Below are positions 7,238 through 31,605 of a stretch of 64,000 bases of DNA, in pieces. Numbering within the stretch: position 1 is the first letter of the stretch; each line of letters starts with the position of its first letter. This DNA is from Clostridia bacterium (GTDB taxonomy: Bacteria > Bacillota > Clostridia > UMGS1840 > HGM11507): contig JAFQLQ010000045.1 of assembly GCA_017414505.1 (NCBI GenBank), forward strand, positions 1 through 64,000, written 5' to 3'. A program made the translations under genes and the position numbers. The notes under the pieces were generated by a model. The model saw only the letters and a program-made list of their open reading frames with translations, had not been told where the DNA came from and made no database searches.

Positions 7238-7240
7238 TGA

Positions 7241-7267: not shown

Positions 7268-7290
7268 CTGTTGAAAAAATCTCAAATATC

Positions 7291-7319: not shown

Positions 7320-7353
7320 TGTTATAACAAATTATATAAGGAGAGTAAGAGAA

Positions 7354-10018: not shown

Positions 10019-10053
10019 AAAGGTGCAGAACCAAGCGTTCTGCACCTTTCTTA
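10019..10053. terminator. Bidirectional terminator between uraA and the response regulator
   Basis: A 13-bp stem (AAAGGTGCAGAAC/GTTCTGCACCTTT) has a five-base loop and sits between the two converging genes. Confidence 0.85.
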
Positions 10054-11502
10054 TTCTTTTCTTACACTGCTTGCTGTAAAACCGTAGTATTTTTTAAATA
10101 CTCTGCTGAAATGATGGGGATCTATAAAGCCTACCTCTTCGGCTATTTCGTGTATTTTTTTATCACTGTGTTCCAGTTCTTCCATTGCTTTTTCCATACG
10201 GACTCTCAGCACATAGTCCTTGAAATTTTCATTGGTGTATTTTTTGAAAAAAGTGCTGAAATAATAAGTGTTTTTATACGCCATTTTTGCAACCGATTCC
10301 ACAGTTAAATTTTCGTTGAGATGACTGTGTATATATTCGGTTATAAGCTTTATTTCAAAACTGTTTCTCACACTTTTACTGTCGCTGTTCTGATTCGTTA
10401 TATCGTTTATCATTTCATAAAGAAATTCTTTTATTCTGATATTTCTTTTACATTCTTTTATAAATCCCAGCGTTGCCTCGGGTGAATATTTATCCATAAG
10501 TGATGTATCCGAGATAAGCTTTCTTAGTTTATCTACCACCGAATAAAACTGAATTACAGCAATATCACGCACACCGCCGCTTGCATTTAGAATCATTTTC
10601 GTAAAATTTTCAAGCTCTTCAAAGGCAGATTTTGTATCTCCGCGATGCACTTCTGAGAAAATTCGCTCGGAAACAGCGCTTGCATCATATGTACCGGATG
10701 GACATAAGTGATTTCTGTCCTCTTCGGAATATACTTTGTTTTCATCAAAAAAGAACGACATTTCAAGTGCACGGCAGGCTGAATTGTAGGAATGTACTAT
10801 TCCGTTAAAGCCTCTGTATGGCTCGCCAACTGCATAATCAGCGGATATTCCTGCTTTTTCCAGAAGGAGTTTTGCATAATTAAGCGCTTTTGCAAAGTTG
10901 TTTTCCGAACCGGAAAACGGGAAAACTATGCAGATATGTGCCTTGTACCTTAAAAGCATACAGGATTCGGGCATTGTATTATTAACAAATGCTTCAAGAG
11001 TGGGAACATCGGAGGTGTTTTCGCATTCGGCAATCACAACTCTGTAATGAGTGCTGGAAGCATTATCCTCTTCAACAGGAAAATCCATATTATAGAGAGC
11101 ATTACTGCTTTTTTTAGTAATTATTTCGTTGTGAAGCTTTTTAACAAGGGAAATGAGTGCAGAAGGATCCACCGGCTTTATAAGATATTCGGAAACTCCG
11201 TAGGTCATTGCTTCTCGTGCGTATTCAAAATCCTTGTAACCGCTTATAAGCACAAAAAGAGGCTTGTTCGGCATATTGCTGCATTGCTTTATAATTTCAA
11301 GACCGGAAAGCTTCGGCATACAAATATCGGTTATAACAAGGTTAGGCTGCTCGGTTTCTATGATTCTTTTTAGTTCTTCACCATCACTTGCTGTTCCGCA
11401 GATTTCTGTTTTATCCTTAAGCTCGCCTAAAATTTTGCAAAAGCTTCTTAAAATAATTTTTTCATCATCAGCAATGGCAATTTTTATTTTCATTCCTTTC
11501 AT
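10051..11502 (-). CDS. Response regulator with AraC-type DNA-binding domain (YesN-like)
   Basis: This 483-residue regulator has an N-terminal receiver domain (IADDEK at 10-15; phosphoacceptor Asp59 in VITDICMPK; KPVD near residue 112). A long middle region of unassigned fold follows, then a C-terminal AraC/XylS double helix-turn-helix (about 385-483, ending IDPHHFSRVFKKYYG). This YesN architecture usually pairs with YesM-type kinases and controls nearby carbohydrate genes. It starts one base after the kinase stop, so the pair is one operon. The first ATG is preferred because AGGAGAGG precedes it at proper spacing. Likely targets are the divergent surface glycan genes from 13500 on. Confidence 0.9.
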   Translation of the reverse strand: MKGMKIKIAIADDEKIILRSFCKILGELKDKTEICGTASDGEELKRIIETEQPNLVITDICMPKLSGLEIIKQCSNMPNKPLFVLISGYKDFEYAREAMTYGVSEYLIKPVDPSALISLVKKLHNEIITKKSSNALYNMDFPVEEDNASSTHYRVVIAECENTSDVPTLEAFVNNTMPESCMLLRYKAHICIVFPFSGSENNFAKALNYAKLLLEKAGISADYAVGEPYRGFNGIVHSYNSACRALEMSFFFDENKVYSEEDRNHLCPSGTYDASAVSERIFSEVHRGDTKSAFEELENFTKMILNASGGVRDIAVIQFYSVVDKLRKLISDTSLMDKYSPEATLGFIKECKRNIRIKEFLYEMINDITNQNSDSKSVRNSFEIKLITEYIHSHLNENLTVESVAKMAYKNTYYFSTFFKKYTNENFKDYVLRVRMEKAMEELEHSDKKIHEIAEEVGFIDPHHFSRVFKKYYGFTASSVRKE

Positions 11503-11503
11503 A

Positions 11504-13273
11504 TTACTTCGCCTCTCCTTTTTCCGACATAGGTATTTTTAATCTTATGCTTGTTCCCAGCTCCTTAAAGCTTTCGATTTCTGCGTTAAACTGCGGACCG
11601 TAAAAGAATTGCAGTCTTCTGCATACATTTTTAAGACCTATATTTTCGGATTTTGTATCTTTTTCTTCGCTTTCAAGCTGTTTGCGCAGTTTTAACAGAT
11701 GTTCCTCGTCCATTCCGTTTCCGTTATCCACTATGTCAATTATAAGAATTTTATCGGAGGAAAGCATAATATTTACGCTTATAACAAGCTTTCTTTCCGG
11801 ATTGTATCCGTGTTTTACGGCGTTTTCTATAAGCGGCTGAAGAACAAATTTCATAATTTTGTATTCCTTTAAGGAATCCGCAATATTTATATTTAAAAGT
11901 ATGTTTTCTTCATAGCGCATATTTACAAACGTAAAATAGTGGTGTACTATATCTATTTCTTCGCGGATAGTTACAAAATCGTTGTTGTCCGAAAGCATAT
12001 ACCGAAGCTGTGATGCAAGGGATATAATCATTGAGCTTACCTGACTTGCATTCTGCTCTATGGCAGTTGCGTTAATGAGCTCCAGCATATTATAAAGAAA
12101 ATGCGGATTAATCTGCATTTTAAGAGCGTTCAGCTCGGCTTCCTTCTGCTTGATTCTGGCACTGTAGGTCTGGCGGATATGCATATCAAGGTCGTCTAAC
12201 ATTTCGTTTACTCCGGATGCAATCTGTGAAAGTTCGGTTACCTTTTCTTCCGTCAGACGAATGTTTAATTTTCCGTTTCTTATGGTGTGCATCTGTTTAA
12301 CCATACGTGTTACGGGTGCTGAAAGCAATTTTGAATAAAAAAGTGAAAGCAGAATAAGTATGGCAGCTATAAAGAGTAAAGTAATGTAGAAAATCTGCTG
12401 TATCATATCTGTTTCAGAGGTAAGGTCGCTTCGGTTAACTCTCATTAACAGTTTCCAGACATTGCAGATATCTGTTTCTATATAAAAAGTATCCGGTCGT
12501 GGAAGACTGTTGGAAAAATCGTGCTCCAGTGTATAAACAGGTGCACCGTTTGTATCTATGTAGGTATCAATATCCCTTGCATGGCTTGAGTATATACAGA
12601 AGTTATTTTTATCCGTCATGGTAATATGAACATTTTTTTCACCGTTTTGCAGAAGCTTGCTGAAGTAGGTGGGGTTGATATCGACTATAATTGAGCCGGC
12701 ATATTCATTTTCGTTGTAGAAATTTTTAGCTACACTTATAACGTATTCGTTCATATTGTTGAAATACCCCTGCGAATGATGCAAGGGAAGTGCCGATGCA
12801 TCTGCTCCGAGAGCCTTTATTTCGTTTATCAGTTCACCGTTTGAAAACTCGTATTCCAGATAGGGATATTTTTTGTATCTGGACATATGCTCCCATGCTC
12901 CGGAGGCGTTTACTGCAATTACATTTTCTGTGTTTACGTTGGTTTGCAGAAGTATGTTCATAAGCATCTGCAGACTTTCGTTGCTTTTTTCGTCCTCGAT
13001 AGAAGAAAGTAAATCGGGAATTCTTGCAGACGGCATATAGTTTTGCAGAGAATCCAACTGTGCAGTCATCGCAGTTATATCATTGGTGACAGTTTCACGG
13101 AAATTTTGCTGAGTATTTCTCAGATATTCAATTGTACGGGTTTGAATAAATCCGGAAAAATAGCTGAATCCGAACATACCAAGAAGTAATATGGGAATAA
13201 GCCCAATGGTGATGTAGGACAGGATAATTCTTCCGGACATACTGTATCTTAAATCGGAAAATCTTTTTTTCAT
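11504..13273 (-). CDS. Sensor histidine kinase, YesM-like (HAMP, His_kinase, HATPase)
   Basis: This 589-residue membrane kinase has a first membrane helix at about 16-38, an extracellular sensor region to about 295, a second helix at about 297-318, a HAMP domain to about 375, the His_kinase domain with the phosphoacceptor motif INPHFLYN near 395, and a C-terminal ATPase domain (ENAVKHGY, DNGNGM, GLKNVCRRL). This is the LytS/YesM class, whose members often sense extracellular sugars either directly or through a solute-binding protein. No solute-binding protein is nearby, so direct sensing is possible. It shares an operon with the response regulator and is read divergently from the DUF6259-like gene. 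Confidence 0.92.
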   Translation of the reverse strand: MKKRFSDLRYSMSGRIILSYITIGLIPILLLGMFGFSYFSGFIQTRTIEYLRNTQQNFRETVTNDITAMTAQLDSLQNYMPSARIPDLLSSIEDEKSNESLQMLMNILLQTNVNTENVIAVNASGAWEHMSRYKKYPYLEYEFSNGELINEIKALGADASALPLHHSQGYFNNMNEYVISVAKNFYNENEYAGSIIVDINPTYFSKLLQNGEKNVHITMTDKNNFCIYSSHARDIDTYIDTNGAPVYTLEHDFSNSLPRPDTFYIETDICNVWKLLMRVNRSDLTSETDMIQQIFYITLLFIAAILILLSLFYSKLLSAPVTRMVKQMHTIRNGKLNIRLTEEKVTELSQIASGVNEMLDDLDMHIRQTYSARIKQKEAELNALKMQINPHFLYNMLELINATAIEQNASQVSSMIISLASQLRYMLSDNNDFVTIREEIDIVHHYFTFVNMRYEENILLNINIADSLKEYKIMKFVLQPLIENAVKHGYNPERKLVISVNIMLSSDKILIIDIVDNGNGMDEEHLLKLRKQLESEEKDTKSENIGLKNVCRRLQFFYGPQFNAEIESFKELGTSIRLKIPMSEKGEAK

Positions 13274-13387
13274 ATTTTTTCTCCTGATATAAATAAATCC
13301 AGGTTAATTATAGCACCCTTTTTTAAATAAAACAATGGATATTTTTAAAAAAAGTGGATATTTTTAAGATTTTTATTTTGATTTGGC

Positions 13388-13443
13388 AAACACAGTATTT
13401 TACTTGTGTTTAAACAACAAAAAATGTCAATGGACAATTTGTC
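13388..13443 (+). promoter_or_regulatory. Candidate operator region between the two-component system and the surface glycan genes
   Basis: Two inverted repeats lie here: AAACACA/TGTGTTT (13388-13394 and 13405-13411, 10-base spacer) and GACAA-T-TTGTC (13433-13443). TGTC at 13425-13428 also faces GACA at 13433-13436. They are 57-112 bases before the DUF6259-like gene and upstream of the divergent kinase gene. The usual -35/-10 match here is weak, which would suit activator control. Confidence 0.4.
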
Positions 13444-13499
13444 TGCAAGGTTGTAAAATGATATATAGTAGGTAAGTTGTATAAAATGGAGAGTTTACA

Positions 13500-15626
13500 A
13501 TGAAATTAAGTTATAAAGATGTGTCTTTGATTTTTGATGCGGATAAAGGTAAAATTATTTCTCTTAATGACGGAAAAAAAGAATATATTTCAACACCTGT
13601 TTCTCTTTTTAAAATATCTCTGCGTAACGAGAACGGTGAACAGCTTTTTGAAGAGTCGGAAACTATGAAAATGACGGCTTCTTCAGAAACAGAAAATCAG
13701 ATTACTGCCCGTTATGACGGTGATTTTTGCACTGCAGAAATAAAAATAGAAACAGACGATAAAATTTCGTGGTTTATAAAGATAAAGCCAAGGAAGGATT
13801 TAATTGCTGAATGGGTGAATTATCCTCAGATTGCTGTTCCTGATGATTTATCGGAGGATGGATATAATATCCTCTGGGGCTTTAATGAAGGTGTGCTTGT
13901 AGACAGTATGGAGGAAAGGGAGCTTAATTTTGCTTACATAGAGCCCGAATACCCTTCAAAGGGGCTTATGGGACTTTATCCTGCTGTTGTTGAAACACAG
14001 TTTATGGCATATTTCAGCAAAGAATCGGGACTTTATATTGGTGCTCATGATATCGAAGATTGCCTTAAAGGTGTTGATTTTTACAGAACTGATAAAGGCG
14101 GTATTTTACTGGAAATACGTAATTTCTGCGGATGCCGTACAGGAGAAGAATACTGTATGCCTTATCCGGTTGTTGTTCAGTTTTTTAAAGGACAATGGCA
14201 GGATGCTGCGGAAATTTACCGTAAATGGTTTGACGAAAATAAAAAAGATGATTATGTGCCGATTCTTAAAAATAAAAAATTACCGGAATGGTACGGAGAA
14301 TCCCCGGTTGTTATAACATATCCTGTGCGCGGAACTCATGATATGGATATTATGACTCCAAACGCAATGTTTCCTTATATAAATGCAATGAAGCACGTTG
14401 AACGACTTGAGAAGGAGCTGGAGAGCAGAATTCTGGTGCTTCTGATGCACTGGGAAGGTACTGCGCCTTGGGCACCGCCTTATGTGTGGCCTCCGTTTGG
14501 CGGAGAGGACGAACTTAAAAAGTTTATAGATGCGCTTCATGAAAGAGGCGACGTTCTTGGTGTGTATTGCAGCGGAATTGGCTGGACTGTTAAAAGTAAT
14601 GTTGATGATTATGAAACATCAGAGCAGTTTGAAAGGGAAAATTTAAAAGAGGAAATGTGTTTATCGCCTAAGCAAACACTTCCGTATTCAAATATATGTA
14701 CAAATCAGAGGGTTGGTTATGATTTATGTCCTTCCCGTAAATTTACGGTGGACACTTTAACAGACCAGGTTGAAAAAATGGTTGGCGCAGGAATTGATTA
14801 TATCCAGCTGCTCGACCAGAATCACGGAGGAACTCCTTATTTTTGCTACAGCAAAAATCACGGACATCCTCCTGTTCCCGGAAAATGGCAGGTAGATGCT
14901 ATGAAAGAAATTTTATCCGGTATTACCGCAAAGTCGGGAAAAGTTTTATTCGGATGCGAGTCTGCTGCTGCCGAGGCGTATGCGCCTTATCTGCTTTTCA
15001 GCGACAACAGATTTGAGCTTAATTATGTTGTAGGAAAACAGGTTCCTGTATATGCATATATTCTGCATGAATATCTTAATAATTTTATGGGAAATCAGGT
15101 TTGCGCAGGCATCTGGCTTGACCATGATAACGCACCCGGCAATATTTACGAAAGAATAGCTTATTCTTTCTCTGCCGGTGATATGCTTACACTTGTTCTT
15201 GACCAGTTTGGCGAAATTACGTGGAACTGGGGTGAGCTTACAACAACCACAATGCCGTCTCAGGAAAATGTGAAAATTCTTGTGCGTAATCTTAACAGCT
15301 GGAGAAGAGGTTACGGTAAAAAATATCTGCACACAGGACGTATGACAAAGGGCTTTGAAATTGAGTGCGGTGTGAATGAATTTGCAAGAGTTGATTTGCC
15401 GTCCCTTAAGCGGAGCGCTCTTCACACTTCTTCCTGGATTTCGCACGAAAATACTTTCGGGCAGTTTGTAATTAATTATAATGACAGGGCAGAAAAATTC
15501 AGTGTAACACTTCCTGACGATGGATATAAGCTTGTTTTTGCCAACGGAACCCGCAAAGAGCTTAATGCAGGAGTAAATACAATAAGCATAGAGGCTTTTT
15601 CAGCAGTTTTTATTGAAAGGAAATAA
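13500..15626 (+). CDS. Putative glycosidase, DUF6259-like TIM-barrel protein
   Basis: This 708-residue protein has no signal peptide. An N-terminal beta-sandwich-like region (about 1-240) is followed by a TIM-barrel-like segment (LVLLMHWEGTAPWAPP, GVYCSGIGW, GIDYIQLLDQNHGG, VLFGCESAAA, NQVCAGIWLDHD) and a C-terminal beta domain (about 620-708). That arrangement resembles alpha-galactosidase or GH101-like clans and matches what I recall of DUF6259 proteins. The acidic residues in the LLDQN and GCESAA strands are candidate catalytic groups. It starts with GGAGAG before the ATG and heads the surface glycan run, so it is probably regulated with it. Substrate and reaction are unknown; the family assignment is from memory. 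Confidence 0.6.
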   Translation: MKLSYKDVSLIFDADKGKIISLNDGKKEYISTPVSLFKISLRNENGEQLFEESETMKMTASSETENQITARYDGDFCTAEIKIETDDKISWFIKIKPRKDLIAEWVNYPQIAVPDDLSEDGYNILWGFNEGVLVDSMEERELNFAYIEPEYPSKGLMGLYPAVVETQFMAYFSKESGLYIGAHDIEDCLKGVDFYRTDKGGILLEIRNFCGCRTGEEYCMPYPVVVQFFKGQWQDAAEIYRKWFDENKKDDYVPILKNKKLPEWYGESPVVITYPVRGTHDMDIMTPNAMFPYINAMKHVERLEKELESRILVLLMHWEGTAPWAPPYVWPPFGGEDELKKFIDALHERGDVLGVYCSGIGWTVKSNVDDYETSEQFERENLKEEMCLSPKQTLPYSNICTNQRVGYDLCPSRKFTVDTLTDQVEKMVGAGIDYIQLLDQNHGGTPYFCYSKNHGHPPVPGKWQVDAMKEILSGITAKSGKVLFGCESAAAEAYAPYLLFSDNRFELNYVVGKQVPVYAYILHEYLNNFMGNQVCAGIWLDHDNAPGNIYERIAYSFSAGDMLTLVLDQFGEITWNWGELTTTTMPSQENVKILVRNLNSWRRGYGKKYLHTGRMTKGFEIECGVNEFARVDLPSLKRSALHTSSWISHENTFGQFVINYNDRAEKFSVTLPDDGYKLVFANGTRKELNAGVNTISIEAFSAVFIERK

Positions 15627-15673
15627 AACAGTTAAATGTTTTTATATAAATATATTTTGTAGGAGGATTTCAG

Positions 15674-18343
15674 ATGAAATTAAAATTTATGGCAATAATG
15701 CTCGCTGTTTTGATGATTATATCACAAACTCAGGCATTTGCGGCAACTGAGTTATCGGATAAGGTGACGGGTGAGCTTAAGGCTTTCGGCATCTTAAAAG
15801 GTGATGAAAACGGAGAGCTGAATCTTGAAGAAAATATCACACGTGCGGAATTTACTGCAATGGCGGTTCGCACACTTGGCATAGACGACTGGTCTTATTC
15901 GGTTTTTTCATTTAATGATGTTGCATCCGATGCATGGTACTATGAGGATGTTATGCGGCTTGTTATGACCGGTTCTATTGCAGGTGTAGGCAACGGTATG
16001 TTCGGGCCTGATGAGCCTATCACAAGAGATCAGGCGGCTAAAATAATTGTTGCATCACTTGGATATACTTACCTTGCAGATGAAAGAGGCGGTTATCCTA
16101 CCGGCTATCTTGCTACGGCAGGTCAGCTTGGAATTTTTGACAAAACATCAATCGACAATGAAAATCTTACAAGAGGCGATGTAGCAAGAATGCTTTACAA
16201 CAGTCTTGATGTTCCTCTTATGGAAAAATTGCATTCCGGCAATGACGATAAATTTGTAGTTGGCGAGTCAACTCTTCGTGATGTGCATATTTATTCTGAT
16301 TCGGACGGTCTTTTTGTAAAACAGAGAGGTATTGTAACTGCAACTCCCGAAGCATGGCTTATAAAACCGTATCCGGGAATTGAAAACAATCAGGTTGTTA
16401 TTGACGATGTTCTGATGAATGCAGGAAACACCAATGCCGGTATGTATCTTGGTATGGAAGTTGATTATTATGTATCGGCTGACGACCAGACCGGCCCTTA
16501 TACCTTACAGCACGTTGTTCCTACCGACCACAACAAGATTTACACATTTACAGAAAAAGATTACGAGGGAAAAAACAGCTCCGGTATAATGTACGAAACA
16601 GAAACCGGTACAAAAACAATTAAGCTGGACGGCTTCTGCAGTCTTGTACGTAACTTCAGACCAATTCCGAGCCCGTCAGATTCTGACTACGCTCTTGACA
16701 GAGGTTCTGTAAAAATTATAGATAACAATGCAGACGGAAGCTTCGACTATGTGTTTATAGAAGAATTTGAAAGTGTAATGGTTGACAGTATTACAGAAAA
16801 CGGAATTCGTCTTGACAGCACAACTCCTTTTATGGGTGTTAACTACATAAATCTTGAAGAAAACGACAACATAAGCTATTTCCTTACCGACAGTGATGGA
16901 AATGCAATCGGAATTGACCAGCTTTCTGAGGGTGATGTGTTAAGTATTGTTTCGGATGATGCAACCGTTGTGAAAATGATAAAGGGAAGCAAGCCTTCTG
17001 TTACCGGTACGGTTAATGCACTTTCCGAAAGTGATAATATTATTACAATAGACGATGAAAATTATTACCTTGAAAATAACGTTCCTTTTGATATTTCAAT
17101 TGGCGATATCAGTAAGTTTTCTTTCAACTTCAGAGGTGAAATTGCTTTTGTTGACATTGCTCAGTATGTAGATTTATACGGACGTATTTTAGGAGCAAAG
17201 GAATCTTTTTCAGAGGATGCAAAAGTAAGAATGGTTATTCCCGGAAGCTTCAGCTACGATATCAAGGTTGATGATTCTGAAGAGGACAACACAACAGAAA
17301 CCCCCATTCTTAAAGGTGCAAATTCGGCAGTTAAAACAATAAAGCTTGCTCCTAAGGTTAACGTTTACGGAACAAGAATGGAATCAGCCGCCGCTGTAAG
17401 ACAGCTTGCAGAAGGCGAAATAGTTCGATACAGTATTAATTCGGCAGGTGAAATAACAGATATTGAAGCTCCCGAAATTACCGGAAGCGATGTAATGGTT
17501 AAATCGCAGAAACGTTACTACAACGGATATGAACAGATTTTCGGAGGTATAAATGCAGGTGCTTTTGCGGTAGAGAGTACAACCAGCGTTCTTTGTATTC
17601 CCGATGATTCCGGAATAGAAAAAGAAGATGACTATCTTGCATCGGTTGAAATCTTAAACGGCAGTGCGTACATAGTTAACGGATACGACCTTATTTCTGA
17701 AAACGAAGTTGCCCGCCTTATTGTTATAAAGGTTCCTTTAAGATACGAAACTGCAACCGGTTCGGAGGAACAGGCAGAAGCGATTTTGGAAAAAGCAGTT
17801 GAGGTTCTTGATGAAAACGGAGATGCCGTAAGCAAGCTTATCTACTGGCAGGACGGCGTAAGAAAGGAAACGGAAACAGAAGCCGGATGCAATCATCAGA
17901 GTCTTCAGCCGGGGGATGTATTCCTGATGTCCATAGGTGTAACAAGCGGAAAAATAGCTAATATTCAGCGTCTTGCACGTCTTAAAAATCTTCAGCCGGG
18001 TGTTATAAGTCTTGGAAACAACAATGTAAGCAATATTCTTGGCGGTTATCTTAACATGGGATATCCGGTTTCGGTTGAATACGGCAAAATAAATGACCTT
18101 AATTACCGCCGTACCGATGTTATAACTCTTGGTATGGATAAGGATAATGTTTCGCAGAAAACATTTGATATCAATGTTCGTAACACGCCGGATATATATG
18201 TATATTATAAAAATTCAAACCGTATTGCTCCCGGGGATACGGGAATGATTTCTCCGAGAAGTTTCGGCTCGGAAAACAACGAAATGGTGCTTGTTTATGA
18301 AAAATATTTAAGTCCCCGTTTGGTTGTTATAGTTAAGGAATAA
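15674..18343 (+). CDS. N-terminal SLH-domain surface protein of unknown function
   Basis: This 889-residue protein has a signal peptide (residues 1-23, ending QAFA). About three SLH repeats follow at 30-200 (ITRAEFTAMAVR, ITRDQAAKIIV, LTRGDVARML), which bind secondary wall polymers. The remaining 690 residues form a beta-rich region without a domain I can name. The N-terminal position of the SLH block differs from the two downstream genes, where it is C-terminal, and resembles true S-layer or outer-structural proteins. It starts with TAGGAGG, 47 bases after the putative glycosidase gene and 25 bases before the next gene, so the three are probably co-transcribed. A scaffold or glycan-binding role is inference. 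Confidence 0.85.
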   Translation: MKLKFMAIMLAVLMIISQTQAFAATELSDKVTGELKAFGILKGDENGELNLEENITRAEFTAMAVRTLGIDDWSYSVFSFNDVASDAWYYEDVMRLVMTGSIAGVGNGMFGPDEPITRDQAAKIIVASLGYTYLADERGGYPTGYLATAGQLGIFDKTSIDNENLTRGDVARMLYNSLDVPLMEKLHSGNDDKFVVGESTLRDVHIYSDSDGLFVKQRGIVTATPEAWLIKPYPGIENNQVVIDDVLMNAGNTNAGMYLGMEVDYYVSADDQTGPYTLQHVVPTDHNKIYTFTEKDYEGKNSSGIMYETETGTKTIKLDGFCSLVRNFRPIPSPSDSDYALDRGSVKIIDNNADGSFDYVFIEEFESVMVDSITENGIRLDSTTPFMGVNYINLEENDNISYFLTDSDGNAIGIDQLSEGDVLSIVSDDATVVKMIKGSKPSVTGTVNALSESDNIITIDDENYYLENNVPFDISIGDISKFSFNFRGEIAFVDIAQYVDLYGRILGAKESFSEDAKVRMVIPGSFSYDIKVDDSEEDNTTETPILKGANSAVKTIKLAPKVNVYGTRMESAAAVRQLAEGEIVRYSINSAGEITDIEAPEITGSDVMVKSQKRYYNGYEQIFGGINAGAFAVESTTSVLCIPDDSGIEKEDDYLASVEILNGSAYIVNGYDLISENEVARLIVIKVPLRYETATGSEEQAEAILEKAVEVLDENGDAVSKLIYWQDGVRKETETEAGCNHQSLQPGDVFLMSIGVTSGKIANIQRLARLKNLQPGVISLGNNNVSNILGGYLNMGYPVSVEYGKINDLNYRRTDVITLGMDKDNVSQKTFDINVRNTPDIYVYYKNSNRIAPGDTGMISPRSFGSENNEMVLVYEKYLSPRLVVIVKE

Positions 18344-18368
18344 GAAAATTTTAAAAGGAGAAATTTAT

Positions 18369-21722: not shown

Positions 21723-24700
21723 ATTAACCGCAGCAGTTGCCGCTTTTACCGTATCTGTATCGGCAGGAGCTTTATTGCCTCTTAGTGCTTATGCTGATGA
21801 ATATGAAGGCTGGGATGAGCTGGATTTAGCCAATGAACAGCGTGTGCTTGCCTTTGTAGATGACGGTCAGACTATTTATTCTGATGAAGAATTTTACGGT
21901 CAGTTCGATACCGTTGCAGGCGAATGGGTTAAGCCCGGTTTGCTGGATTATGTGGAATATCCCGGGCTTGCCGCAGTTCAGGAAGCGGCTAAAAAGAGCG
22001 ACTACGAAACTGCAAAATATGAGCTTCTGGAGTTCTATCGTGATTTGTACGACACATTTCAGCCGGTTTACAACAATGTAAGCCCCAATGCAAATCTTAT
22101 TTATCAGGCTTACGCTATAAAGAATAACTTTCAGCTAAACTCGGCTATGGTACCGACAGTGCTTGGTATTCCCGTTATGGGTAATGAGGACGGATATGTA
22201 GAAATAAACATTACCGACAGAATGAGCTCTATTCTTGCACAGCCGTCTCCTGTTTATTCTGTTGAGCTTTTCGGCCTTAAAAAAGACGGAACCTGTATTT
22301 CGATAGAAAGTCTCGATGCGGGTTCGGGTCATCCTCCGGTGGTAGAGGTAAGGTCAAAGGGTGTTGTTCAGAAATTTGTTGCAACCGATGACTCCTATAT
22401 TTCACCGCAGGCAAATTACGACAAAAATTACGGTCACGAGCCGGAAATACTTGCGGAGGAAAGCATTTCTTCCATTGGTCTTGAACGTCTGGCAGACAGT
22501 AATACAAAAAGAGGTCTTATAAAATTTGACTTTACCGAGCTTGATGCCGCAACAGCGGTTGATTCTGCTTACCTAAAGCTTTACGGCAGAAATGCCAGCG
22601 GACTGGGCAGCGGCGAGCTTTTGGTAATAGAATATTCCAACAATACCTGGAACGAAGACGAAGTAACCTATTATGAAGGGCAGGAGGGTTCAACTCTTGA
22701 GCACGGAACCTTCTCCAACTACGGAATGGACAGCTACCGCTTTGACGGCGGTGTTGCTCCTGTAAGAGACGGTATTTACAATGTTTTTGCTTACCGTTAT
22801 CCCGAAGAACTTCTTCGTTTTGCGTGGGCTACTGTTTTTTCACAGCTTTATCATTACGACCAGGATGAACGTCAGGCTCTTGCATTTTTCAATCAGTGGA
22901 TAGGATACCTCAATCAGAGAGGTAAAGAGCCAAGATACGATAAAACTCTTGACGGACATTGCCGTGACAAAAATATTTGCGAAGCAATGTACGAAATGAT
23001 AAACAGTAAATATATGTCGGCAGAAATTTTCTCGGCAACTTTAAAATATATGTATATGGAATGCCGTGCACAGATAGACGGGCCTTATGAACCCGGTAAC
23101 TGGGGTGTTTATCAGCTAACCGGTATGACAACTATGGCGGCTTATCTTCCTACTCTTACCCTTAACGAAGAGCTTATTGAATGTATTCAGCAAAAAGCGG
23201 CAGATAAAATTGCCGAAGCTTATTATGATGACGGAAGTGCTTACGAAATTGCGTGGAGTTATTCCTTTACCGGAACATTTATGGGTGTTGTTGAAGCAGA
23301 AGGTATTTTAAGACGCTGTAACAATTTTGAAGATTCCATTTTCCCCGGTGATATTCAGGAAAAATGCTACGAAATTCTTAAATATTTCGCATCATTGTTA
23401 ATGCCCGGCGGCGGTAACCCGCAGGTGGGTGACGAAGCCGGATATACGGGACGAAGCTATCACAACGAAAACCGTAATCAGCTTATTTACAAAGTTGTTG
23501 ATGTTCCTTTCTGGAGATGGCTTGCAACAGACGGTGCCGAGGGTGAAGCTCCCGACTGGACTACTGTTCGCTACACCGCTACAACAGATCCCAATGAGTT
23601 TAAAAGCGGTGTATACACAATGCGTGATAACTGGACTCCCGAGGGTGTTTACCTTTATACCGATGTGGACGGAAACATTCCTCCCGGACATGGACATCAG
23701 GATGATAACCATATAATAGTAAAGGCATACGGACAGTATCTTCTTACCGACCAGAGCTTCTCATCGTATGCTACAAACTCCGTAAAGCTTGCTCAGACAT
23801 TATATCACAATACAGTTACTATTGATAACACAACGCAGAGCTTCGGAAAAACTGCATATGAAGGTCTTAATCCCGTAAAAAAAGAAAAACGCTACGAAAC
23901 AAACAGTCTTTATGTTAACACAACACTTACAACTCCGCAGAACGGTGACCATCACGGACTTCACACAAGAAATATTCTGTTTAACAAAATTGGTGCACCA
24001 TTCTGGATTGTAAACGATTATCTTGAGCCCCTCAGCATGACAAGAGAGCATAACTATCAGCAGAACTGGCATATGCTTCCTGCGGCAAATCCTACAATGG
24101 ATGAGGATATGGTCGGAAAAAGTAATTTCTCCGAAACCGCAAACATATGGATTGCTCAGGCTAATACCGATGATATGACCGAAGCGGTTGTTCACGACGG
24201 ATATTTCGGTCAGGGAAATTCAAGATTGTATGATTCTCATTATCTTAATTATGTAAAGGATGCAAAGGGAAATGTTCTTTATGATACTGTAATTTACCCG
24301 GAACGTCCCGGTGTCACCTCTGATGTAAGCAGTTATGCGCTTCCCATTGGAGATGTAGAAAATAACGGTGCAACTGCAATGAGGGTTAACATTGAAAGTG
24401 ACGACGGAACCTATGTGGATGCGGATTACTATCTTGTTCACGATCCTCTGCAGCAGAGGCCAAGAAAATTCGGAGCTTATCAGACAGACGGTCGTTCCAC
24501 TTATATAGGCAGAGATGCAACCGGAAAGATATCACAGGTATTCCTGCAGGATACTGCGGAGATTTCCGATTCCAATACGGGCAAAATTCTTTTCAAAGCC
24601 GAAGCACCTGTTTCTGAGCTTGGCTACACAAAAGAATCTTACCGTCTTGCAATGGCATCTTCTGCAGAGGTTGACCTTGATACCATAACAATTTATCTGG

Positions 24701-25548
24701 AAAATGCCGGTGAAATTACCGAAATTATTTTAAACGGTGAAAATGTTGACTTCAAAAAATCGGGAAATTACATTTACTTTGGTTCAGAGCCGATAATCAC
24801 GGATGATAAAACAGATGATGTGGTTACACCTCCTGCTTCATCCGATCCATCCGGTAATCATGGCACAGGAGGAGTACTGATACCTATTATTCCTTCCGGC
24901 GGCGGTTCCGGTGGCGGAGGTTCGTCCGGTGGGGGTGGAGGCTCGTCCGGTGGTTCGGCAGTTGTGGTTCCTGTTACACCGTCAGAGCCTGCAATTCCGG
25001 AAGCTTTCTTAAACGAGCTTGAAACTCACTGGGGTAAGGAGGAGCTTACCGATGCTCTTAAAAACGGTATATTAAAAGGTCTTAACGAAGAAACATTGGG
25101 TCTTTTTGAAACTACCACAAGAGCTCAGTTTGTAACTCTTATTCTTCGTGCAATGGGGATAGAAGCTGAAAAACATGAAAATGTATTTACAGATGTTCCC
25201 GAAAATGAATGGTACAGAGATTATGTGCTTACAGCGTATAATAAAGGTCTTGTAAACGGCGTGGGAGAGGGAAGCTTCCTGCCCGATGCTGAAATAACCC
25301 GTGAGGAAATGGCAAAAATTATTACTCTTGCTTATGCTATGGTTAAAAATGAAGAGATTTCCGTTTCCGATACAGAAAATTTTGCCGACGATTTATCCAT
25401 TTCCGACTGGGCAAAGGAATATGTATATTACGCAAGAAAATGCGGACTTTTAAAGGGTGATGAAAACAATGATTTTCGTCCCCATGACAATGTAACCCGA
25501 GATGAGGCAGCCGTTTCAGCTGTCAGACTTAAAAATCTTATAAAATAA
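21706..25548 (+). CDS. SLH-anchored heparinase II/III-type polysaccharide lyase
   Basis: This 1280-residue secreted enzyme has a signal peptide (1-30, ending AYA) and an N-terminal lyase-associated segment. A DNRLRE/CBM-like beta domain is inserted at about 214-326 (KFVATDDSYISP, RGLIKFD), and an alpha-helical toroid-like region follows (about 350-560). The heparinase II/III C-terminal beta domain carries GHGHQDDNHIIVKAYG near 659-674. A glycine-rich linker lies at about 1064-1087, then three SLH repeats to the end. Such lyases cleave acidic polysaccharides by beta-elimination and give the unsaturated ends that GH88 enzymes remove. The start is the ATG at 21706 with CAGGAGGC upstream; the overlap with the previous gene suggests coupling. 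The substrate is unknown. Confidence 0.85.
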   Translation: MKIFHKLTAAVAAFTVSVSAGALLPLSAYADEYEGWDELDLANEQRVLAFVDDGQTIYSDEEFYGQFDTVAGEWVKPGLLDYVEYPGLAAVQEAAKKSDYETAKYELLEFYRDLYDTFQPVYNNVSPNANLIYQAYAIKNNFQLNSAMVPTVLGIPVMGNEDGYVEINITDRMSSILAQPSPVYSVELFGLKKDGTCISIESLDAGSGHPPVVEVRSKGVVQKFVATDDSYISPQANYDKNYGHEPEILAEESISSIGLERLADSNTKRGLIKFDFTELDAATAVDSAYLKLYGRNASGLGSGELLVIEYSNNTWNEDEVTYYEGQEGSTLEHGTFSNYGMDSYRFDGGVAPVRDGIYNVFAYRYPEELLRFAWATVFSQLYHYDQDERQALAFFNQWIGYLNQRGKEPRYDKTLDGHCRDKNICEAMYEMINSKYMSAEIFSATLKYMYMECRAQIDGPYEPGNWGVYQLTGMTTMAAYLPTLTLNEELIECIQQKAADKIAEAYYDDGSAYEIAWSYSFTGTFMGVVEAEGILRRCNNFEDSIFPGDIQEKCYEILKYFASLLMPGGGNPQVGDEAGYTGRSYHNENRNQLIYKVVDVPFWRWLATDGAEGEAPDWTTVRYTATTDPNEFKSGVYTMRDNWTPEGVYLYTDVDGNIPPGHGHQDDNHIIVKAYGQYLLTDQSFSSYATNSVKLAQTLYHNTVTIDNTTQSFGKTAYEGLNPVKKEKRYETNSLYVNTTLTTPQNGDHHGLHTRNILFNKIGAPFWIVNDYLEPLSMTREHNYQQNWHMLPAANPTMDEDMVGKSNFSETANIWIAQANTDDMTEAVVHDGYFGQGNSRLYDSHYLNYVKDAKGNVLYDTVIYPERPGVTSDVSSYALPIGDVENNGATAMRVNIESDDGTYVDADYYLVHDPLQQRPRKFGAYQTDGRSTYIGRDATGKISQVFLQDTAEISDSNTGKILFKAEAPVSELGYTKESYRLAMASSAEVDLDTITIYLENAGEITEIILNGENVDFKKSGNYIYFGSEPIITDDKTDDVVTPPASSDPSGNHGTGGVLIPIIPSGGGSGGGGSSGGGGGSSGGSAVVVPVTPSEPAIPEAFLNELETHWGKEELTDALKNGILKGLNEETLGLFETTTRAQFVTLILRAMGIEAEKHENVFTDVPENEWYRDYVLTAYNKGLVNGVGEGSFLPDAEITREEMAKIITLAYAMVKNEEISVSDTENFADDLSISDWAKEYVYYARKCGLLKGDENNDFRPHDNVTRDEAAVSAVRLKNLIK

Positions 25549-25572
25549 TAATATTATTAAGGAGGAACAAAA

Positions 25573-28500
25573 ATGAAACAAAGAAAACTAATTGCACTTC
25601 TGTGTGTTTTAAGTATGCTTTTTACTTTTATTACACCTGTTAGTGCAGAAACAACCATTTTAGCCGGTGCTCAGGAAGACGGCAGCTTTTTAATCGGTGA
25701 TTTTACCGATGCAACAACTGCTTCCGCATTTCATGCAAGCGGCGAAGAGGATCGTGACGGTAACGGTTATAACGCTGCCGGTGGATATCTTACTCTTAAC
25801 GAATCCGAAATTTACGGTTCGCAGGGTGAAAACTATTTTATACAGAATCCTGCTGTTTTTTCAGAACTTGATTTTTCCGATTACGGTATTTTCAGAATGA
25901 AATACGCTATCGAAAAGAATAACTGGGAAACAACCGGAAGTATTAAAAATTATTTCACCGTTGTACTTTCCACAGCAGAATCTAATGCAAATTCTGTAAC
26001 TTATTGCGAAAACGAATGTTTGTATTACGAATATGATTTAAGCAATGTAAATCTTACTTCTGCTCTTACAAAGGGTGAAATCGCTGTTCCGTTAAGCGAA
26101 TTTAAAACCGCTTTCGATGGTATGGTAAACGGTTCTGAGGTTGCTGATAAAAAGGATGGAACAACTGATTTAAGCGATATTAAATCTATTTCAATTCTTG
26201 GTTCTTCTTTTGGTGTTGACCCCGAAGATGATATGAATGGTGTAGTTGAAGGTCCCGGTACCGAATGGAAAGCGTGGACATTTATCAACGGCACTATCGA
26301 AGATGATTTAAGCTGCGGTTTTGGCGTTTATGAAATGAGACTGCTTAAGCTTGTATCCCTTGCTGCAGAAGAGCTGGATTTGGTTATGGCAGACCAGTTA
26401 AAAGTTGCTAAAAATACAACTCTTAATCTTCCTCTGGCAGTTTCCGGTGCAACAGTTGCATGGAGCTCCGCTAACGAAAGCATTATTACAAATGCAGGTG
26501 TTGTTACAATGCCCGCAAATGATACAGATGTAGTATTAACTGCTACTGTTACCGCAACAGACGGTTCCACCGCAACAAAAACCTATACTGTAAAAGTTTA
26601 TGGTACAAATTATACAAAACTTAAAGCAGGAAAACAGGCAGACGGAAGCTACTTAATCGGTGATTTTTCGGATAAAACTACCGGTAATGCTTTGATTGCC
26701 GGTTGTACTGCAACAAATTCTAACTATGATACTATCAGTAACTTTGTTCCGTTAACATGGCACACAGACCCAATAGGAAGCAGATTTGAAAATTATATTT
26801 ATAATAACCCCGTTGTATTTGATGATCTTGATTTTTCAGAATACGGAATATTAAATATAGATTTTGTAATTGTGAAAGACTACTATCAAAATCAGTTGAA
26901 CAACTGTTTTTCTATTGTCCTTTCCACAGCTGAAAGAGATGCAACAGCACTTACATATTATCAGAATGAATGTTTGTTCTATGAGGTTGATTTCAACGAA
27001 CGTACCTTAACGGGACAAAAAACCAGATTTAACTTATCAATTCCTTTGAACGACTTTACGCTTGCTTTTGACGGTATGAAAGATAACGTTCAGGGTGTTG
27101 CTGACGGCAAAATTGATTTAAGCGAAATTAAATCTGTTTCTATTATGGGACAGGGCTTTAAAGGTGCTGTTAACTCAACATTAGGAACCAGAAGTTCAAC
27201 TCAGATGTTTAAAAGACCATCTGATAATGACAACACAACTTGTGGCGGTGGTCTTTACAGCATAAGCTTGTTTAAGCAGGCTAATGTTGTAGGAGCAGAG
27301 CTTGATACATTAATGGCAGACTACGAAAGATTTATTGAAAATACAACAATCACATTACCCACAGAGCTTACAGGTGCAACAGTAACATGGAGCTCTGACA
27401 ACGAAAGTATTATCAGCACAAGCGGAGTTGTTACACTTCCTGAAAAAGATACAGTTGTTACATTAACAGCTTCTATTACAGCTGACGACGGAACAACAGC
27501 AACAAAAACATATTCATATACTGTTTTTGGTACAACTTCTACTCTTAAAGCCGGCAAACAGGCAGACGGAAGCTACTTAATCGGTGATTTCACAACTCAG
27601 GAAATGGCAACAATATTCAAATCAAGCGGTGCAGAAAACACCACCGGCGGATGGGATAGTGTAAATAAATTCTTTTCAATGAACTGGACTGTTAACACAG
27701 GTTCCAGAGGTGAAAATTACATCTACAATCATCCCAATGTGTTTAAAGACCTTGATTTCTCCGAATACGGTATGTTCAACATAAGATTTTCAATTGACAG
27801 AACAAATTTCAAGGATTTCCCGACAGTTGAAAACTATATGACAGTTGTTCTTACAACTGCAGAAAAAGGTGCTGTACCGAATACATTCTATGAAGATGAA
27901 TGTTTGTATTACGAAATTGATTTAAGAGATTATCCTTTCACTAACAGTTCAAAACAGGATATTAACCTTACAATTCCTTTCAATGAATTCAAGGTTGCAT
28001 TCGATGGAATGGCAAACGGTACTCAGGGCGAAGCAGACGGAAAAGTTGATTTGGCAGATATCAAGTCATTCTCACTTGTTGCAGGTCCTTTCGGAAGCCG
28101 TATTAAAAACGGTCCCGGTGCTACAGATTCTCCATACTGGGCATTTACAAATTCCGGTGCTGCAAAATATAATAATAGCGGAGTTGCAACAGAAGTTGAA
28201 AGATGTGGTGCAGGTTTATACAGCATAAGCTTATTTAAGCAGGCTAACTTCGCAGGCGAAGAGCTTGATACCTTAATGGCAGGCTACGAAAGATTTTACG
28301 AAAATACAACAATTACACTTCCCGCTAAGCTTACAGGTGCAACAGTAACATGGAGCTCTGATAACGAAGCTGTTATCAGCAAAGACGGTGTTGTTACACT
28401 TCCTGAAAATGATACAACTGTTACATTAACTGCTGCTATTACAGCAAGTGACGGAACAACAGCAACAAAAACATATTCATATAAAGTTTTTGGTTCTGTT

Positions 28501-30417
28501 ATTTCAATTAAAGCAGGTGCTCAGGCAGACGGAAGCTACTTAATCGGTGATTTTTCAGATGCGGCAACCGGTACTGCTATGTTTAATGGAAGTGCTGGTC
28601 AGGCTTCTAAATATGATAGTGTTTATAAATGGTATACTTTAGGATGGCTAAGTGATAACATTAATCTTTCCAGAGGTGAAAACTATATTTACAACAATCC
28701 TGTTGCATTTAAAGACCTTGATTTTTCAGAATACGGTCTGTTCAGCATGGATTTTGCAATAGTTAAAAATGATTATGTAACATATCCTAAGATTGACAAC
28801 TACTTTACAATAGTTCTTTCTACTGCGGAAAAGGATGCTGTTCACACTAACTATTATCAGAATGAATGCTTGTATTACGAAATTGATTTGAATGAATATC
28901 CTCTTACATCTAACATAACTAAATTTAACTTAACTGTTCCGTTTAGTGAATTTACAGTAGCTTTCGACGGTATGAAGAATGGTGTTAAAGGTACTGCTGA
29001 CGGTAAGGTTGATTTAAGTGAAATTAAATCTATATCTATTTTCGGAAAAGGTTTTGCAGCAGTAGCAAATTCAGAGGGCGGTCATGTCAGTGCAGACTAC
29101 ACCTTTAAGAATTCCGGTCAGGCTTCAGATAAAAACTGCGGCGGTGGTCTTTACAACATAAAACTTCTTAAACAGGCTACTCTGGCAGGCGAAGAGCTTG
29201 ATACTTTAATGCCTGCTGCAGACAGATTTACTGAAAATACAACAATTACATTACCCACAGAGCTTACAGGTGCAACAGTTAGCTGGAGCTCTGATGATGA
29301 AAGTGTAATAAGCACAAGCGGAGTTGTTACACTTCCTGCATTGGATAAGGTTGTTAAATTAACTGCTTCAATTACTGCCGACGACGGAACAACAGCAGCA
29401 AAAACATATTCATATATTGTTTTAGGTGTTAAATCTCCCTTAAAAGCAGGAAAACAGGCAGATGGAAGCTACTTAATAGGTGACTTTAGCGACAGAACTA
29501 CAGGTAATGCTTTAATTGCAGGTTGTACTGCAACAAATTCAAATTATGATACTATCAGCAACTTTGTTCCGCTTTCATGGCATACAGATGCAATAGGAAG
29601 CAGATTTGAAAACTACATTTCCAATCATCCCAATGCATTTAATGAGCTTGATTTCTCCGAATACGGAATATTCAATATGGATTTTGCAATTGTTAAAAAT
29701 CTTTGGGAAAAATATCCCAATATCAGCAACTGGATTACAATTGTTCTTTCCACAGCAGAAAAAGATGCAACAAGGCTTAACTATTATCAGAATGAATGCT
29801 TGTTCTACGAAATTGATTTAAGCAAATATACGCTTACAAGCCAAATCAGCGATTTTAGTCTTTCTGTTCCGCTTTCTCAGTTTACCGTTGCATTTGATGG
29901 AATGAAAAACGGTGTTCAGGGCGAAGCAGACGGCAAGATTGATTTAAAAGATATTAAATCAATCTCCATTATGGGCCAGGGCTTCAAAGGTGCTGTAAAC
30001 GCAGGGGAATTAGGCAATTTATCTTCAACTCAGGCTTTGAAGAGCTCCGGTGAGGATAAAATTGATACATGTGCAGGCGGACTTCGCAAAATATATTTAA
30101 GCAACTACACAGTTTCCAAACCCGTTATTTACTCCGGTGATGCCGAATTTACAGATATGACTTTAGCTTCTGATGTTTACGGTAAAGCTGAGTGCGTTGT
30201 TGCTGAGGGTGTTACCAAAAAGGTTAACGCAATTATCGCTCTTTACAACGGCGGAGAGCTTAAAGCTGTTGACTCTAAAGAAGTAACACTTGCAAACGGT
30301 GCAATTTCAACAAATTCACTTTCCTATAATCCTACCGATTACGATAAAGTTTCGGTTTATTTGTGGGATAGTGCAACTATGGCACCAATAACTGTAAAAG
30401 CAACACTTTCTAAATAA
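25573..30417 (+). CDS. Giant secreted protein with five tandem beta-rich modules and Ig-like spacers
   Basis: This 1614-residue protein has a signal peptide (1-25, ending VSA). It is built from five repeats starting near residues 31, 352, 660, 980 and 1292, each opening with AGxQxDGSxLIGDF. Shared marks are LDFSEYG, IVLSTAE, an AFDGM loop, ADGKIDLxxIKS and a closing GLYSISLFKQ. Repeats 1-4 each end in an atrophied Ig-like module (WSSDNESIIS type); the fifth passes into a distinct C-terminal beta domain (about 1510-1614). There is no SLH, sortase or dockerin signal. The repeats look like carbohydrate-binding jelly rolls, but I cannot name the family. It lies 25 bases after the lyase gene with AGGAGG, so it probably shares the operon. 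Confidence 0.85.
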   Translation: MKQRKLIALLCVLSMLFTFITPVSAETTILAGAQEDGSFLIGDFTDATTASAFHASGEEDRDGNGYNAAGGYLTLNESEIYGSQGENYFIQNPAVFSELDFSDYGIFRMKYAIEKNNWETTGSIKNYFTVVLSTAESNANSVTYCENECLYYEYDLSNVNLTSALTKGEIAVPLSEFKTAFDGMVNGSEVADKKDGTTDLSDIKSISILGSSFGVDPEDDMNGVVEGPGTEWKAWTFINGTIEDDLSCGFGVYEMRLLKLVSLAAEELDLVMADQLKVAKNTTLNLPLAVSGATVAWSSANESIITNAGVVTMPANDTDVVLTATVTATDGSTATKTYTVKVYGTNYTKLKAGKQADGSYLIGDFSDKTTGNALIAGCTATNSNYDTISNFVPLTWHTDPIGSRFENYIYNNPVVFDDLDFSEYGILNIDFVIVKDYYQNQLNNCFSIVLSTAERDATALTYYQNECLFYEVDFNERTLTGQKTRFNLSIPLNDFTLAFDGMKDNVQGVADGKIDLSEIKSVSIMGQGFKGAVNSTLGTRSSTQMFKRPSDNDNTTCGGGLYSISLFKQANVVGAELDTLMADYERFIENTTITLPTELTGATVTWSSDNESIISTSGVVTLPEKDTVVTLTASITADDGTTATKTYSYTVFGTTSTLKAGKQADGSYLIGDFTTQEMATIFKSSGAENTTGGWDSVNKFFSMNWTVNTGSRGENYIYNHPNVFKDLDFSEYGMFNIRFSIDRTNFKDFPTVENYMTVVLTTAEKGAVPNTFYEDECLYYEIDLRDYPFTNSSKQDINLTIPFNEFKVAFDGMANGTQGEADGKVDLADIKSFSLVAGPFGSRIKNGPGATDSPYWAFTNSGAAKYNNSGVATEVERCGAGLYSISLFKQANFAGEELDTLMAGYERFYENTTITLPAKLTGATVTWSSDNEAVISKDGVVTLPENDTTVTLTAAITASDGTTATKTYSYKVFGSVISIKAGAQADGSYLIGDFSDAATGTAMFNGSAGQASKYDSVYKWYTLGWLSDNINLSRGENYIYNNPVAFKDLDFSEYGLFSMDFAIVKNDYVTYPKIDNYFTIVLSTAEKDAVHTNYYQNECLYYEIDLNEYPLTSNITKFNLTVPFSEFTVAFDGMKNGVKGTADGKVDLSEIKSISIFGKGFAAVANSEGGHVSADYTFKNSGQASDKNCGGGLYNIKLLKQATLAGEELDTLMPAADRFTENTTITLPTELTGATVSWSSDDESVISTSGVVTLPALDKVVKLTASITADDGTTAAKTYSYIVLGVKSPLKAGKQADGSYLIGDFSDRTTGNALIAGCTATNSNYDTISNFVPLSWHTDAIGSRFENYISNHPNAFNELDFSEYGIFNMDFAIVKNLWEKYPNISNWITIVLSTAEKDATRLNYYQNECLFYEIDLSKYTLTSQISDFSLSVPLSQFTVAFDGMKNGVQGEADGKIDLKDIKSISIMGQGFKGAVNAGELGNLSSTQALKSSGEDKIDTCAGGLRKIYLSNYTVSKPVIYSGDAEFTDMTLASDVYGKAECVVAEGVTKKVNAIIALYNGGELKAVDSKEVTLANGAISTNSLSYNPTDYDKVSVYLWDSATMAPITVKATLSK

Positions 30418-30425
30418 TAATTTTA

Positions 30426-30455
30426 ATTTGCCTCCTCCTTGGTGGGGAGGCAAAT
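30426..30455 (+). other. Intercistronic hairpin before the second GH88 gene
   Basis: A perfect 10-bp stem (ATTTGCCTCC/GGAGGCAAAT) encloses a 10-base loop and has no T tract after it. Partial termination or a processing and stabilising role is likely. Confidence 0.5.
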
Positions 30456-30474
30456 CTATACGGAGAAGATTACT

Positions 30475-31605
30475 ATGAATTTTGAAGAACTTATAAAAAA
30501 AGAACTTGACGGAATACTTGCAAAAATTGATAAAAATATGCTTCTTTATAAGGATAAAACTCCGCATATAAACGGCAATCTTAAATACAGCGAAAATCTT
30601 ACCGAGGACGGCAACTGGACAGGAAGCTTCTGGTTCGGAATGGTTGTTCTTGCTGTAATAATCACGCAGAATGAGCATAAATACAAACCGTATCTTGATT
30701 CCTTTAAGGAATTTTATTTTAAAAGAGTAAGAAACGGTTATAAAGACCACGATTTAGGCTTTCTTTATCAGCTTTATGCGGTTGATGCATACCGTGTAAC
30801 CTGCGATATGGATTATCTTGATATGGCAGATATGGCGGCAAGATGTTTGTATTCCAGATACAATCCAAACGGTGGATTTATAAGAGCGTGGAGTATGCTT
30901 GGCTTCCCTCAGAGAGAAGGAAAAACTATTATCGACTGTATGATGAATCTGCCTCTTTTATTTTCCGTTGCAAAATCCGGCGGAGATGCAAGATATTATG
31001 AAGCGGCGAAAAATCACGCTTTTGCGGCTCTTAATAATATTCGTGAAGACGGAACTGTTTATCATACCTTTGATTTTGATGTTCTTACCGGCAAACCCAT
31101 AAAAGGTGAAAACGAGGGTGGATATTCCGATGAATCCTGCTGGTCCAGAGGACTGGCGTGGGCTGTTTACGGTTTTTATCTTGCCTGGATGCACACAAAA
31201 GAGCAGGCGTTTCTTGATGCAAGCATAAAAACTGCCGATTGTTTTATGGCAAACGTTAAAAAAGGCGAAATGCCCTTATGGGATTTCCGTCTTGATGATG
31301 AAAATGATAAAAATATTGATACCTCTGCGGCTGCAATTGCTGCCTGCGGAATGTATCAGCTTGCTGAAGCTGTTGGTGAAAACAAATACAGAGAATTTGC
31401 AGATGATATGCTCTATACATTAATAACAAAGGAATCTCATGTTTTCGACGATGATTCTGAAGCACTTTTAGGAAACGGAATGTGCGGAAGCTGGATTGAC
31501 GGAAAACGCAGAACAAACCAGTGGGCTACCATTTGGGGCGATTATTTCTATATGGAGGCACTCACATTAAGAAGCGGACTTAAGGTTCGTATGTGGGATA
31601 TGTAA
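30475..31605 (+). CDS. Glycoside hydrolase family 88-type unsaturated glucuronyl hydrolase
   Basis: This 376-residue cytoplasmic enzyme has the GH88 signatures ESCWSRGLAWAVYGF and MPLWDFRLDDENDKNIDTSAAAIA, with the conserved Trp-Asp-Phe and Asp-Thr-Ser-Ala-Ala runs. It hydrolyses the unsaturated uronyl end of lyase products through hydration of the double bond. The start is the ATG at 30475 preceded by CGGAGAAG; an upstream ATG at 30439 lies in the hairpin and was rejected. It follows the SLH lyase and repeat protein on the same strand, which supports one degradative route. It is a paralogue of the gene at 7354, clearly diverged. No signal peptide is present, so oligomers must be imported. 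Confidence 0.85.
   Translation: MNFEELIKKELDGILAKIDKNMLLYKDKTPHINGNLKYSENLTEDGNWTGSFWFGMVVLAVIITQNEHKYKPYLDSFKEFYFKRVRNGYKDHDLGFLYQLYAVDAYRVTCDMDYLDMADMAARCLYSRYNPNGGFIRAWSMLGFPQREGKTIIDCMMNLPLLFSVAKSGGDARYYEAAKNHAFAALNNIREDGTVYHTFDFDVLTGKPIKGENEGGYSDESCWSRGLAWAVYGFYLAWMHTKEQAFLDASIKTADCFMANVKKGEMPLWDFRLDDENDKNIDTSAAAIAACGMYQLAEAVGENKYREFADDMLYTLITKESHVFDDDSEALLGNGMCGSWIDGKRRTNQWATIWGDYFYMEALTLRSGLKVRMWDM

Follow-up and report, generated by a model that had tools for sequence, protein, structure and literature searches.

A six-gene operon facing a divergent YesM/YesN pair, by which it is putatively regulated, probably serves to bind and cleave, at the cell wall of a Clostridia bacterium, an acidic polysaccharide that contains uronate and is probably for the most part non-sulfated, a reading to which we assign a probability of about 0.6. 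In the proposed scheme, YesM would sense an outside ligand and YesN would switch on the divergent operon, perhaps via a direct repeat in the intervening gap, and SLH domains would anchor three products to the secondary wall polymer (the N-SLH and Ig/discoidin-SLH proteins and the SLH-lyase), with the secreted five-module protein contributing carbohydrate-binding modules. The PL12-like lyase would then cleave the polymer by β-elimination, the unsaturated oligosaccharides would be taken up via an ABC importer encoded elsewhere, and a cytoplasmic GH88 would strip the unsaturated uronate, the remainder being probably trimmed by the DUF6259 protein. By analogy with SusD and surface glycan-binding proteins, the N-SLH protein may bind the substrate of its own locus.

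Organisation of the locus and its divergent promoter

The window is the whole stretch of DNA analysed, i.e. positions 1 to 64,000 of contig JAFQLQ010000045.1 (assembly GCA_017414505.1). ORF calls and Pfam matches delineate six tightly packed plus-strand genes facing yesM and yesN, where a preliminary description of this DNA had counted seven; the divergence of YesM/YesN from the same-strand run is confirmed, with a gap of 226 bp between yesM and the DUF6259 gene, and the domains initially called for all six products and for YesM/YesN are all recovered by Pfam.

10019..10049, no strand: bidirectional terminator-like hairpin with a 13-bp stem, between a permease gene and yesN
10051..11502, minus: YesN-type response regulator (receiver, GGDEF-like and AraC HTH domains)
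11504..13273, minus: YesM-type histidine kinase (transmembrane, HAMP, His_kinase and HATPase)
13336..13367, plus: direct repeat of two TGGATATTTTTAA copies in the divergent promoter gap, candidate YesN operator
13500..15626, plus: DUF6259 protein, signal peptide not seen (Pfam E 2e-28)
15674..18343, plus: N-SLH protein with signal peptide, degenerate SLH repeats and a domain of about 650 aa (SLH E 3e-17)
18369..21722, plus: secreted Ig/discoidin/3xSLH protein (Pfam aBig_2, F5/8)
21706..25548, plus: secreted lyase with CBM96, Hepar_II_III_N/C and SLH (Pfam)
25573..30417, plus: secreted five-module protein without SLH, with repeated modules of about 230 aa and aBig_2
30439..31605, plus: GH88, UGL-type unsaturated glucuronyl hydrolase (Pfam E 2e-12)
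31609..31643, no strand: terminator-like inverted repeat AAAAAGCGAATTACC...GGTATTCGCTTTTT with a T-run, between the GH88 gene and a convergent TetR gene

Down the six-gene run, the intergenic gaps are 47, 25, -17, 24 and 21 bp, the negative value assuming that the lyase starts at ATG 21706. The open frame of the lyase begins at TTG 21634 but the ATG, just ahead of the signal peptide, is the more likely start; the GH88 start at 30439 is also a TTG, for which ATG 30475 is a possible and perhaps the likelier substitute. The inverted repeat at 31609-31643 was read straight from the sequence, as the automatic scan did not list it. A terminator-like hairpin thus delimits the unit on either side.

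Regarding regulation, the two copies of the direct repeat (13336 and 13355) are spaced 19 bp apart, and no other occurrence of the pair was found in the 2.38-Mb genome when up to 3 mismatches were allowed; it is unique to the locus and a candidate YesN operator. Only three kinases of the His_kinase family are found in the genome, YesM included. The second YesM kinase, divergent from an ABC importer, is encoded about 4 kb away from a heparinase-fold lyase paralogue (L058, G000:C44:10614-12350; L058:3266-6808). The third YesM is not near any lyase paralogue, which counts against the reading preferred here.

Besides the N-SLH protein and the lyase, two large secreted proteins are encoded. The Ig/discoidin protein combines aBig_2 modules, an F5/8-type C module, a Gly-rich linker and a C-terminal 3xSLH, and the five-module protein consists of five repeats of about 230 aa with aBig_2 domains between them. 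The five-module model (pTM 0.74) hints at a jelly-roll or CBM11-like fold, through a weak CBM11 match (E 5e-3, TM 0.34-0.44) found among many jelly-roll capsid matches.

The N-SLH family and its enzyme neighbours

The N-SLH protein belongs to a family without a name, in which SLH repeats accompany the domain of about 650 aa and of which iterated searches recovered about 28 members encoded within the 2.4 Mb of this genome. Starting from the window protein, a single-sequence search reached 7 paralogues and iterated searches over the first set of stretches reached 17 proteins besides itself; its match to the family profile A1 (E 1.7e-166) is that of a protein among the seed rows of A1. The paralogues are about 20% identical to each other, and the large domain has no match in Pfam, in specific NCBIfam models (outside SLH) or in the PDB, S-layer structures included. 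A single-sequence AlphaFold model of the domain was unusable (pLDDT 31), the search for an internal duplication within it gave nothing convincing, and a scan of viral contigs with the window protein returned no matches. Of 291 genomes sampled evenly across the class, 83 encode family members; counted by genus, 49 of 180 do. The literature searched, the main Monoglobus genome paper aside, yielded no description of the family or of the tandem pair.

This tandem pair associates an N-SLH gene with a gene for a protein bearing SLH repeats at its C-terminus. In the window genome, 24 of the 29 N-SLH genes examined stand directly downstream of such a gene (gaps from -98 to +36), two directly upstream (window and C2) and three in neither arrangement. 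The short form of the partner has about 500-580 aa, with an Ig-like and a helical-looking region, a Gly-rich linker and 3xSLH. The order is thus reversed in the window, where the N-SLH gene comes first and the 3xSLH protein follows, and the canonical helical partner adjoining many other copies is missing, which speaks against the preferred reading. In other genomes, N-SLH spacing ranges from -17 to +17 bp in all 11 paired loci, which were picked because pairing was seen or likely and are not a random sample. Monoglobus pectinilyticus is a pectin specialist, in which two N-SLH genes overlap the ends of genes encoding Ig-like, 3xSLH-tailed proteins of 2068 and 2090 aa.

The own-genome neighbours of N-SLH genes include PL8, heparinase, GH88, GH20C, GH3, GH38, GH94 and GH127 genes as well as ABC importer permeases and solute-binding proteins. 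PL8 is the most conspicuous, with 18 genes in the genome, several of them in tandem pairs (G000:C16, C53, C2, C8, C1, C11, C14 and C29). For seventeen of these 18 genes, an N-SLH gene is found no more than 15 kb away, against an expected fraction of 0.32 (p ~4e-8), and only 3 of 18 have one within 5 kb (p 0.36, not significant), so that the proximity emerges only over distances comparable to entire loci (8-15 kb). Across the 291 genomes, 52 hold both N-SLH and GH88, 31 and 28 only one of them and 180 neither (odds ratio 10.8, p 2e-16), a statistic that ignores shared descent.

Phylogeny points in the same direction. In a tree of 44 N-SLH domains, which has long branches and modest backbone support, the three domains encoded beside PL12-like lyases (window, C2 and L049) form a clade (99/93), where the window domain and that of L049, from another Clostridia MAG, are sisters (99/89); when any one of the three is dropped, the others stay together. 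A second clade (100/100) comprises eight domains, six of which are encoded beside PL8 genes. Overall, enzyme labels change 8 times on the tree against 13.5 upon shuffling, and none of 200 shuffles was as low. The 'PL12' label of L145 was not counted, the match being weak (E 6e-9). From these sequence comparisons, the N-SLH family appears to have evolved together with the neighbouring enzymes.

It is tentatively proposed, at somewhat less than even odds, that the N-SLH protein and its C-terminal-SLH partner constitute a Clostridial marker of the SusD/SGBP type, i.e. a two-protein, wall-anchored glycan-capture module of which some genomes would hold dozens of divergent copies, each dedicated to a locus and co-evolving with its enzymes. 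A conserved stand-alone N-SLH copy, with enzyme neighbours absent, occurs in several genomes (L138, L139, L140, L141 and L149), near the ribosomal protein operon in Monoglobus, from which the basal role of the domain may be structural. Such a copy is one of the reasons for considering N-SLH proteins as alternative S-layer or wall-coat proteins swapped in per locus, with no binding of the substrate; the SLH domains followed by a long domain rich in predicted β strands, which is S-layer-like, and the extreme divergence within the family also speak for this explanation. It is nonetheless judged somewhat unlikely, since about 28 divergent copies tied to enzyme types, with a phylogeny tracking the enzyme, exceed the needs of a coat and since the large domain resembles no solved S-layer protein in sequence.

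Lyase, GH88 and the probable substrate

A profile built from the lyase and seven relatives matches the catalytic region of the PL12 heparinase III 4MMH with an E-value of 3e-61, far ahead of other heparinase-fold families (PL35 2e-6, PL17 2e-5 and PL15 4e-4). In the profile alignment, Asn489, Tyr543 and His725 of the lyase (numbered from the TTG), invariant in the eight homologues (alignment A5), fall on the positions of the 4MMH catalytic triad Asn240/Tyr294/His424 (PMC12088678). With a similarity to PL12 exceeding that to the other families and the catalytic Asn, Tyr and His kept, the enzyme is PL12-like and likely cleaves an acidic polysaccharide. Compared with 4MMH, the catalytic domain and residues are alike, but identity is low and CBM96 and SLH have been added. 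The protein also has the features of an SLH-anchored surface enzyme, with a hydrophobic N-terminal leader (judged by eye) and, after a Gly-rich linker, C-terminal SLH repeats (residues 1130-1294 of the protein, alignable with the SLH trimer of Sap). A scan of the genome collection with the lyase returned one relative only.

The GH88 protein aligns with the unsaturated glucuronyl hydrolase 2ZZR (E 1.4e-55) over both the HDLGFL and IIDCMMN motifs, the two conserved Asp of which we take to be catalytic in GH88. Similarity over the catalytic domain and the lyase-then-hydrolase chemistry are common to the two systems, yet identity is low. Together with the PL12 residues, this UGL-type GH88 supports the sequence of a lyase and then a GH88 acting on an acidic polysaccharide, as initially suggested for the locus. 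No signal peptide was seen on GH88 or on the DUF6259 protein; the latter is probably cytoplasmic and perhaps a glycosidase, and sequence search found no solved relative of it. Consequently, the view that most steps are SLH-anchored stands for display and lysis but not for the steps attributed to these two proteins, and an importer must come from elsewhere.

Additional genes of the window may take part in the pathway. A second GH88 gene (7237..8511, plus), which shares 29% identity with the first, overlaps clpX by its last base and closes a tig-clpP-clpX housekeeping run; lying outside the operon, it is possibly accessory. Two further groups could possibly supply downstream catabolism and the end of the uronate pathway, respectively:

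45658..49269, plus: uronate cluster with UxuA, TIM-barrel, SDR and GH43/32 proteins, and an AraC regulator on the opposite strand
51382..53088, plus: KDPG aldolase and PfkB kinase

Regarding the substrate, the nearest solved lyases are PL12 heparinase III, the solved GH88 proteins closest to that of the window include an unsaturated chondroitin disaccharide hydrolase, and GH20C neighbours one sister locus, all of which would suit a locus for heparan sulfate or another sulfated glycosaminoglycan in a forager of host glycans. Taking a heparinase-type domain to imply a sulfated glycosaminoglycan would be an overstatement, as lyases of the heparinase fold vary widely in substrate (PMC12088678) and only two matches to the sulfatase family were found genome-wide, none of them in the locus; this explanation is unlikely. 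With two sulfatase matches, 18 PL8 genes and at least six GH88 matches, the genome suggests instead an organism that forages on acidic polysaccharides, most of them non-sulfated.

That the locus would degrade or remodel the acidic wall polymer or capsule of the cell itself, rather than an external nutrient, could be envisaged from a wall-anchored lyase, an importer absent from the locus and a LytR-CpsA-Psr gene 10 kb away. The dedicated YesMN sensor, the multiple modules of carbohydrate-binding type and the cytoplasmic GH88 fit foraging, as do sister loci with ABC importers and the many PL8 lyases, which makes a role in the own wall very improbable.

Sister loci and relation to known systems

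Evidence that the genes work together comes from related loci, where products encoded separately in the window are fused. One ORF at C8:12865-18201 combines a lyase sharing 58% identity with that of the window and modules of the five-module type; at C2:144660-151073, a single ORF combines modules of the Ig/discoidin protein, the lyase and 3xSLH. In genome G001, ORFs of more than 3300 aa (L147:96-10118 and L148:1335-11273) similarly join Ig/discoidin-like modules, a PL12-like lyase and a 3xSLH tail. Since the fused products are those of adjacent window genes and keep their order, the genes likely constitute a single functional unit. Recurrence of the combination is seen in the sister locus at C2:138-156 kb, which repeats N-SLH, lyase/SLH and GH88, and on contig L049, which carries on one strand two heparinase-fold lyases, one of them SLH-tailed, together with an α-L-fucosidase (L049:3783-5162) encoded between them and an N-SLH gene downstream of the fucosidase.

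GH88 is absent from the other searched genomes of the order, hence conservation does not extend to all six genes together. The preliminary description had regarded homologous clusters lacking the lyase and GH88 genes as evidence against a single system; most sister SLH loci do carry other enzymes, so that this evidence applies to the SLH part, but it does not extend to the lyase-bearing ones, namely C2:138-156 kb and the locus of the other organism with its SLH-lyase, second lyase and N-SLH gene. Its reading of the genes as one unit is likely right, as suggested by the flanking hairpins, the unique promoter repeat and the colinear fusions. Chance neighbourhood of the six genes, for which it can be argued that the exact set was not found elsewhere and that neither GH88 nor DUF6259 was found fused to partners, is the least probable explanation of all given the small gaps, the flanking hairpins, the same-order fusions and the renewed combination of lyase, SLH and N-SLH in a sister locus and a distant contig.

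In Gram-positive bacteria, the polysaccharide utilisation locus (gpPUL) is defined by a minimum of at least one polysaccharide-degrading enzyme, a transcriptional regulator and a carbohydrate transport system (Sheridan et al. 2016, PMC5320581). The PL12-like lyase and GH88 provide the first and YesM/YesN the second, but no transporter is encoded between 10.0 and 31.7 kb, the nearest ones being a xanthine/uracil-type permease and exporter-type ABC proteins (ABC_membrane) at 32971-36610. Like gpPULs, the locus clusters enzymes with a dedicated regulator in a Firmicute, but it differs by the missing transporter and by SLH display and is therefore gpPUL-like rather than a member under the published definition. 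The absence of an ABC importer noted at the outset is accurate within the locus but not for sister loci, where importer permeases and binding proteins are present.

Regarding Bacteroidota PULs, Pfam found no SusC/SusD match in the operon, as had been stated from the start. The resemblance to SusC/SusD and surface glycan-binding proteins lies in a divergent family of surface proteins that serve as a marker of each glycan locus and differ according to its substrate enzymes; N-SLH proteins share neither homology, nor a TonB transporter, nor an outer membrane with that system, they are anchored by SLH and their function is proposed by analogy. In Bacteroidota, SusCD marks each locus, and the recognition and retention of complex glycans are far better understood than in Gram-positive gut bacteria. 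If N-SLH proteins were capture proteins, loci and substrates could be predicted from a sequence marker in many uncultured Clostridia without SusCD, an idea open to test in cultured Monoglobus pectinilyticus. The N-SLH family is common to the window and to the SLH proteins of this species, but no PL12-like lyase was found beside the Monoglobus copies. Besides, the lyase operon is a compact, expressible candidate for a new acidic-polysaccharide specificity.

SLH-anchored CAZymes of Paenibacillus sp. JDR-2, Ruminiclostridium cellulolyticum (Cel5I) and Caldicellulosiruptor likewise associate an enzyme with binding modules and terminal SLH repeats, but the enzyme of the window is a lyase and is adjoined by a locus-specific N-SLH protein. 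The SLH arrangement, first thought unusual, is not peculiar to this locus as the genome contains 150 SLH-domain matches. While the genome otherwise displays enzymes by SLH, a secreted protein of 1348 aa encoded at 57332-61378 of the window bears a C-terminal type I dockerin.
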